From NCBI GenBank assembly GCA_002746935.1, contig PDRW01000012.1, forward strand, positions 1 through 43,734: 43,734 bases of DNA, written 5' to 3'. This stretch comes from Rhodobacterales bacterium (GTDB lineage Bacteria; Pseudomonadota; Alphaproteobacteria; Rhodobacterales; Rhodobacteraceae). Below the pieces are notes generated by a model that saw nothing but the letters and a program-made list of their open reading frames with translations, did not search any database and was not told the DNA's origin. Position numbers and translations under genes: made by a program. Positions within the stretch are counted from its first letter, which is position 1; every line of letters begins with the position of its first letter. Below are positions 26,608-37,786 of this stretch, piece after piece.

Positions 26608-26838
26608 ATGCCCAAACGTATCCTGCAAGGCACAGTGACCTCGGACGCCAACGCTCAGACCGTCACCGTTCTGGTCGAGCGCCGCTTCAAGCATCCGCTG
26701 CTGAAGAAAACCGTCCGGCAGACCAAGAAATACCGGGCCCACGACGAGAACGACACGTTCAGGGTCGGCGACAAGGTGCGCATCCAGGAATGCGCGCCGA
26801 AGTCGAAAACCAAGCGCTGGGAAGTGATCACCGCCTGA
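26608..26838 (+). CDS. rpsQ: 30S ribosomal protein S17
   Basis: 76 residues: [59 protein letters not shown]. It is complete and 14 bases after rpmC. Confidence 0.97.
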
Positions 26839-26902
26839 GCGGTTCACATCCCGGTTTGATCGAAACCATGAGAGCAGGCTCTCAAAGGTCAGGAGAAACC
26901 CC

Positions 26903-27201
26903 ATGATCCAGATGCAGACCAATCTGGATGTCGCTGACAACTCCGGCGCTCGCCGGGTGCAGTGCATCAAGGTCCTGGGTGGTTCGTGAAGAAGGGCGAC
27001 GTGCGCAAGGCCGTCGTCGTGCGCACCGCCAAGGAGGTGCGTCGCGAAGACGGCACCGCCATCCGTTTCGACCGCAACGCCGCGGTGATCCTCAACAATG
27101 CGGGCGAGCCGGTCGGCACCCGTATCTTCGGCCCGGTGGTCCGCGAACTCCGCGCCAAGAACTTCATGAAGATCATCTCGCTCGCCCCGGAGGTGCTCTG
27201 A
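26903..27201 (+). pseudogene. rplN: 50S ribosomal protein L14, internal deletion with frameshift as written
   Basis: The N-terminal frame reads [28 protein letters not shown] and stops at 26987-26989. The C-terminal frame from 26986 reads [18 protein letters not shown] and continues through a normal end ([14 protein letters not shown], 71 residues). L14 is normally about 122 residues; 28 + 71 = 99, so 23 residues (the stretch after LGGS, usually K-R-K/R-Y-A ... P-R-G-R) are missing, and the loss is about 70 bases, not a multiple of three. All neighbours are intact and RBS and start are normal. L14 is expected to be essential, so either the sequence is wrong here or another rplN copy exists. 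Confidence 0.9.
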
Positions 27202-27506
27202 TGGCCGCGAAACTGAGAAAAGGCGACAAGGTCGTCGTGCTCACCGGCAAGGACAAGGGCAAGCAGGGTGAGATCACCCAGGTGATGCCGAAGGCCGGCA
27301 AGGCCGTTGTCAACGGGCTCAACATGGCCGTGCGTCACCAGCGCCAGAGCCAGACCGCCCAGGGCGGCCGGCTGCCGAAGGCGATGCCGATCGACCTCTC
27401 GAACCTCGCGCTCGTCGATTCCAACGGCAAGGCCACCCGCGTGGGCTTCCGCGATGAAAACGGCACCAAGGTGCGCTTTGCCAAGACCACCGGGGAGGCG
27501 ATCTGA
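27201..27506 (+). CDS. rplX: 50S ribosomal protein L24
   Basis: 101 residues: [25 protein letters not shown] (KOW motif), then [19 protein letters not shown]. It starts on the last base of the rplN stop and shares its own stop with rplE (TGATG). Confidence 0.97.
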
Positions 27507-30936: not shown

Positions 30937-31545
30937 ATGCCCCTGCGCCTTCTTAATGTCGCTGCCCTTCTGGGCATCCCCGTCATCGGTCTGGTGCTCT
31001 GGGCCTGGGGGCAGCCGATCGTCAGCACCTCGGGGGAGATCCGCCTCTGGGTCAACTCGATCTGGTCGCCGGAAAACTCGCAGCAGGTCGCCGACTGGTA
31101 CACGCTCAGCCATATGGTCCACGGGTTGCTGCTCGGGCTCATTGGCAAGACGCTGTTGCGCCGGAGCGGGTTTGCGCCGGTCTATCTCGTGGCGATCGCT
31201 ACCGGCGTCGGATGGGAGATCATCGAGCATACCCATTGGGTGCTGCACCGTTTCCGGGCGGTGACGCTTTATCAGGGCTATATCGGTGACACGGTGCTGA
31301 ACGCGACCATGGATTATGTGTTCATGATGTGCGGCTTTTTCCTTGCCAGCCGGGTGCGGCCATGGCCGACCTTTGGCGTGATCGTCGCCATGGAGCTTAC
31401 CTCGGGGTTCATGGCGCGCGACAACCTGACGCTGACCACGCTCAACACCCTCTTTCCCAACCCGGCCATTCAGGCCTGGCAAAACGCGATCAACCCGCTG
31501 AGCAAGGCGCCGCCCCCCGAACCGGCCACAGCGGCGGGCAAGTGA
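30937..31545 (+). CDS. DUF2585 (UPF0314) membrane protein within the r-protein cluster
   Basis: 202 residues with about five hydrophobic segments: for example [21 protein letters not shown] near the N-terminus and [18 protein letters not shown] in the middle. Conserved-looking motifs include [11 protein letters not shown] and [14 protein letters not shown], with His/Asp pairs typical of DUF2585. The C-terminal tail is Pro/Ala-rich and cytosolic-like. The function is unknown. It is placed between rpmD, which ends with a terminator, and rplO, where no gene is usually found. Confidence 0.85.
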
Positions 31546-37174: not shown

Positions 37175-37786
37175 ATGACGGAAATGCTCGGGCTGGAACA
37201 GGGGCTGGCCAAGCTGTCGGACCTTGCGCCGCGGGGATATGCGCTCGCGCTGCATATCCGCTTTGCCGCCGCGCATCTGATGATCCAGACCTACGACCCG
37301 CGCTGGACGGAGATTTACACCGAAAACGGCTATATGCTGGCCGATCCGACGGTATTCTGGGGCTTTGGAAATGATGGGACGATCCGCTGGTCGGAGATCG
37401 ACTTGCCAGACCAGCAAGGGATTCTCACACAGGCCGCCGAGTTCGGGCTGAAATACGGGGTGGCAGTGGCCTTTGGTCCGACCTCGTCGCGCACCATTGG
37501 CGGGTTTGCCCGCGATGACCGCGAGTTTGCCGACGACGAGATTGCCAGAATCTCCGAAATCGTGGCCCGGTTGCACGAGGCCTCGACCCCTCCGGAGCAG
37601 CTGACCCCGGCTCAACGCATGGCCCTGCGGCTCATCGCCCGCGGCAACCGCTACGCCGAGGCCGCTGCCCGGCTCGGCATATCCGAAAGCGCGCTCAAGG
37701 CGCGGCTGCGCTCGGCGCGGGAGCGGTTGTTCGTGCGCACCACGGCAGAGGCCGTGCAGCGGGCACAGGAATACAAGCTGCTTTGA
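37175..37786 (+). CDS. LuxR-family autoinducer-binding regulator (solo)
   Basis: 203 residues. An N-terminal acyl-homoserine-lactone-binding domain (about 15-130) keeps key residues: W and Y in RWTEIYTENGYMLADP, the Asp-Pro, and W in IRWSEI. The C-terminal LuxR helix-turn-helix (about 140-200) reads LTPAQRMALRLIARGNRYAEAAARLGISESALKARL. No luxI synthase lies in the window. RBS GAGGGG precedes the ATG. It sits between the rpoA-rplQ unit and rarA, possibly linked to neither. Confidence 0.88.
   Translation: MTEMLGLEQGLAKLSDLAPRGYALALHIRFAAAHLMIQTYDPRWTEIYTENGYMLADPTVFWGFGNDGTIRWSEIDLPDQQGILTQAAEFGLKYGVAVAFGPTSSRTIGGFARDDREFADDEIARISEIVARLHEASTPPEQLTPAQRMALRLIARGNRYAEAAARLGISESALKARLRSARERLFVRTTAEAVQRAQEYKLL

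Follow-up and report, generated by a model that had tools for sequence, protein, structure and literature searches.

A 70-nt gap that breaks the frame of rplN in a draft Rhodobacteraceae genome is very likely a local misassembly

In intact form, bacterial rplN, which encodes ribosomal protein uL14 (L14; PF00238), is flanked by rpsQ and rplX within the spc operon and has a single open frame over PF00238 positions 1-122. In model bacteria the gene is essential. Yutin et al. surveyed 995 genomes and counted 44 of 56 bacterial r-proteins as strictly ubiquitous; the excerpted text of that paper names some exceptions to ubiquity, and L14 is not one of them (PMC3353972). All 40 of the solved uL14 sequences listed match over a stretch spanning residues 29-51.

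In the window (the whole 43,734-nt stretch of DNA that was analysed), rplN has the same place between rpsQ and rplX, the same start, residues 1-28 and 52-122, and the stop of PF00238 uL14; by contrast, it is without residues 29-51 and one further base, which breaks the frame (Table 1). The start codon, ATG 26903, lies shortly downstream of an AGGAG-like stretch. Instead of one open frame there are two: from GTG 26986 the L14 frame continues, sharing one base with the first ORF and running in the -1 frame for 71 residues to TGA 27199-27201. The PF00238 model matched the first piece with an E of 8.4e-10 and the second with an E of 2.5e-31, leaving 23 profile positions missing between them. ORFs and profile thus agree with an earlier note on this DNA, which had N-terminal L14 running to a stop at 26987 and the 71 C-terminal residues in another frame from 26986. 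Compared with the five same-genus genomes having the gene (G001, G002, G004, G005 and G006), the DNA was alignable to the left and right of the junction, and exactly 70 nt were absent between, where the earlier note had estimated about 70. The frame shift and the 23 absent codons of its "23-codon deletion" stand, while its size needs correction: one base is lost in addition to the 23 codons, and it is for this reason that the frame shifts.

Table 1. Coordinates of the rplN pieces, their junction and the adjacent genes in the window
Feature	Position	Strand	Evidence
rpsQ (S17), intact, upstream of rplN	26608..26838	+	ORF; Pfam match
rplN 5' piece, L14 residues 1-28, then TGA stop 26987-26989	26903..26989	+	ORF reading; PF00238 profile positions 1-28
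rplN junction, 70 nt of same-genus relatives absent; breakpoint ambiguous by one base	26985..26986	+	DNA alignment
rplN 3' piece, L14 residues 52-122, -1 frame, then TGA	26986..27201	+	ORF reading; PF00238 positions 52-122
rplX (L24), intact, downstream of rplN	27201..27506	+	ORF; Pfam match

The genes around rplN (rpmC, rpsQ, rplX, rplE, rpsN, rpsH, rplF, rplR and rpsE) are all open frames, and the six that were scanned (rpsQ, rplX, rplE, rpsN, rpsH and rpsE) matched Pfam models, which bears out the claim that the neighbours are intact. From ~24.9 kb onward in the window, the order of similar stretches agrees with that in G001, G004 and G005. Stop-to-stop ORFs of at least 100 codons from these three genomes were compared with the window over the part similar to them, ~24.9-37.8 kb, and the first 24 kb were inspected as ORFs only. 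Many hits were split, and rplN was the sole broken gene in the compared stretch; the other split hits were judged by inspection to be antisense or shadow frames or run-on into neighbours.

Six other genomes of the same genus were searched, and rplN was found in the five named above; the sixth, G003, which is 74% complete, gave no rplN match. Named loci were collected through the neighbour gene rplX, blind to the state of rplN, and the best 80 of at least 525 confirmed relatives were used. Among the matches listed, the top named match to the rplX of the window was Rhodobacteraceae bacterium UBA9292 (88% identity). A 122-aa L14 was present in 78 of these best 80 loci, and the other two (L050 and L061) lie too near a contig end to judge rplN. 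The two-frame arrangement was therefore not conserved: rplN is single-frame in 5/5 same-genus matches, all of which carry the 70 nt, as well as in those 78/80 named loci.

In a family-wide search, L14 was matched in 374 of 394 genomes and in 337 of the 346 good-quality ones (≥90% complete, ≤5% contaminated). Nine good-quality genomes gave no L14 match (G025, G060, G099, G107, G114, G117, G159, G212 and G276), among them four rated 100% complete (G060, G099, G107 and G212); assembly gaps are the likely cause. Two L14 matches were obtained in 6/374 genomes (the window's own, G028, G109, G208, G289 and G336), the second being a fragment or weak in several. G109 has two full-length matches and G289 one good and one divergent match, and contamination of 2-3% may explain both.

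We screened the 374 matching genomes for broken rplN, taking a best E per genome weaker than 1e-50. Seven genomes were retained: G000, which is the window's own assembly, G028, G143, G177, G188, G198 and G359. In G143, G188 and G198, rplN appears to be cut at a contig edge; the match in G143 begins at the first base of its contig, and the G188 and G198 loci are without one flank. G359 has 36 N across the N-terminal part of the gene. Mid-contig breaks were present in the window, G028 and G177, whose assemblies are 83.9, 85 and 73% complete, respectively. In G028 the frame changes after about L14 residue 17, and a further L14 fragment (positions 49-90) lies at the end of another contig. In G177, on one contig (L133, around 600 and 1000), the rpsQ stop is joined straight to about L14 codon 18 and rplX is without an internal piece. 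At the 1e-50 threshold, mid-contig breaks thus occurred in 3/37 matching genomes outside the good-quality set (window included) versus 0/337 inside it, in a comparison that was made post hoc and is blind to breaks near the ends of rplN. The window shares with G028 and G177 a mid-contig rplN break in a fragmentary draft of low completeness; by contrast, the places and sizes of the breaks differ, that in G028 looking like a small indel and that in G177 taking parts of both rplN and rplX. These two breaks would be artefacts as well. The number of contig ends that fall inside rplN was also considered as demonstrating an assembly hot spot and rejected, because it is near a rough, hand-made chance estimate.

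The window is contig 24 of an assembly of 2.81 Mb in 94 contigs that is 83.9% complete with 1.47% contamination, and that is probably a metagenome bin. The second rplN that the earlier note had allowed for did not turn up there: a profile search of the 83.9%-complete assembly detected no second rplN and no copy of the missing segment elsewhere (E ≤ 0.001), and a DNA search of the same assembly with the intact rplN of G005 returned the two window pieces only (E ≤ 0.001). Bacteria require RNA polymerase. Profile searches for rpoB and rpoC nevertheless gave zero matches in the 94-contig draft, although each family matches in 14/14 control genomes and is above its cut-off in 10/14, and an unassembled region is the likely cause. 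Because rpoB and rpoC are missing too, the absence of an essential gene from this draft says little about the organism. The secA gene is whole (positions 1-786 of 787).

In comparison with each of five relatives, 0 nonsynonymous and 1-4 synonymous differences were counted over the 27 complete N-terminal codons that precede the junction codon. The C-terminal part differs nonsynonymously at 2-5 codons and synonymously at 16-19, with dN at 0.026-0.049 and dS at 0.38-0.49, i.e. dN is about one tenth of dS. Judged by these codon differences, the two remnants resemble a functional gene under purifying selection. The relaxed selection expected of a pseudogene was not found in the remnants, and a very recent break would give the same picture. 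Because the remnants show no decay, the break is either very recent or absent from the organism.

The 5' end of rplN has longer k-mers in common with relatives than the remainder of the operon tested. We counted k-mers over rpmC-rpsE in 84 relatives (the 80 named loci together with G001, G002, G004 and G006), some loci covering the operon only partly. The 41-mers of the rplN 5' end were common to up to 20/84 relatives, the next best in rpmC-rpsE reaching 6 (rpsE), and the 51-mers to up to 7/84, the next best reaching 2. At k=31, rpsH and rpsE reach 26/84 and rplN 22/84; the lead of rplN is therefore limited to longer k. The longest exact run, 84 nt (26902-26985), is common to the window and Oceanicola sp. 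22II-s10i (L094), followed by runs of 77 nt with UBA9292 (L046) and of 71 nt each with Defluviimonas (L119) and Haematobacter (L099); that these relatives belong to other genera rests on their names. Since the window lacks the 70 nt that follow, any exact run reaching the junction necessarily ends at it, so that only the length of such runs is informative. The first 83 nt of rplN are almost identical between species, even between named genera. Across the junction, 31-mers were found in 0/84 relatives, and a degenerate 31-mer for the junction was absent from genome_contigs, a collection in which the window's own record is possibly not included. The break therefore adjoins sequence common to many genomes, as expected of an assembly artefact, an agreement that we take as suggestive only.

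In total, we consider it very likely that the rplN break is a local misassembly in the draft genome and that, very probably, the organism itself has an ordinary 122-aa L14. That assembly produced the break, and that it did so because of shared k-mers, are both inferred. A near-identical rplN 5' end across co-occurring species would provide shared k-mers and hence an ambiguous assembly graph, in which an assembler or gap closer could join the flanks wrongly with the loss of 70 nt. Conserved stretches that occur in several genomic contexts, such as resistance genes and rRNA, have been described to give branched graphs that some assemblers misassemble; in the excerpted text of the same study, the ambiguity usually ends in splitting into short contigs, and metaSPAdes rarely misassembled in the test (PMC11479545). 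A false join at 26985/26986 is accordingly plausible and not proved, since shared stretches do branch graphs, yet split contigs are the usual outcome in that text. Some points speak against misassembly. Errors are not dense here, because only rplN is broken in the compared stretch and secA is whole; fragmentation is commoner than a false join, given that splitting is the usual finding in the excerpted part of PMC11479545; and misassembly gives no reason for the loss of precisely 70 nt.

A recent, real deletion would make this copy a fresh pseudogene, with an intact second copy in the ~16% of the genome that is unassembled. We regard this as unlikely. The incomplete assembly does leave room for another rplN, and G109, another member of the family, yielded two L14 matches of full length, though at 2% contamination. 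Against this, a single rplN is the rule, two matches having been found in just the six genomes mentioned, the remaining sequence is undecayed, and it is the broken copy that occupies the usual operon position. A real deletion could also have been present in a minority of cells, as a dying or mixed-strain variant, and been taken into the consensus. Such a variant would leave the remnants undecayed, as found; however, a consensus normally tracks the majority, a lethal allele would be rare, and nothing in the present data supports it, so that we hold this explanation to be very unlikely.

A junction that is both real and fixed would mean ribosomes with the product of a second, possibly divergent rplN from the unassembled part of the genome or with a split or shortened uL14 without residues 29-51, and we judge this to be highly improbable; should the junction be real, it would be remarkable for a bacterium to do without a normal uL14. 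Least credible of all, and very unlikely in our estimate, is that -1 recoding, or a restart at the overlapping GTGA, yields a functional L14 that is short or split. The stop codon that ends the first piece does overlap a GTG in frame with the second, but this GTG is simply the conserved Val52 codon. Moreover, a slippery heptamer of the form X XXY YYZ is missing from the junction codons GGT TCG TGA, the predicted fold of the junction region is no more stable than those of shuffled sequences (z +0.55, DNA parameters), and with either recoding or restart the 23 residues 29-51 would still be missing, whereas no examined relative is without just those residues and every listed solved uL14 spans them. 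The order in which the earlier note had ranked its explanations, with an artefact first, a second copy next and recoding less likely, is therefore supported by the negative searches of the assembly for a second copy, the rpoB and rpoC missing from it, the selection on the remnants, the breaks in other drafts and the lack of a slippery site. With local misassembly as the preferred explanation, an essential gene that is seemingly broken in an 84%-complete draft is poor ground for biology before a read check, and the rplN 5' end, being so alike across Rhodobacteraceae, is a plausible place for short-read metagenome assembly to fail.

Two mechanisms for a deletion in the DNA itself were considered and rejected. 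Deletion between direct repeats finds one shared base only at the breakpoint when compared with G005; a 21-mer reaching one base past the breakpoint is common to 11/84 relatives, and the overlap at the breakpoint could be two bases. A hairpin-driven deletion was given little weight, because the breakpoints do not bracket the stem: a 101-nt stretch of G005 that includes the missing part has a somewhat more stable fold than its shuffles (z -2.1, 5/200 as good), and a 51-nt part of it folds like shuffles (z -0.11).

Finally, the window holds several further genes in and around the operon. Downstream of rplQ, 37175-37786 (+) encodes a regulator of 203 aa that combines an autoinducer-binding domain with a sigma-70 region 4/HTH-like C-terminus, and DNA resembling this gene also follows the operon in G001 (77.8% identity). 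A DUF2585 protein is encoded within the spc operon, directly 5' of rplO (30937-31545, +). Directly upstream of rpmC, 24927-26160 contains a 2OG-Fe(II) oxygenase gene on the minus strand and a DUF1706/DinB-like gene on the plus strand; oxygenase-like DNA is found upstream of rpmC in G001, G004 and G005 as well.
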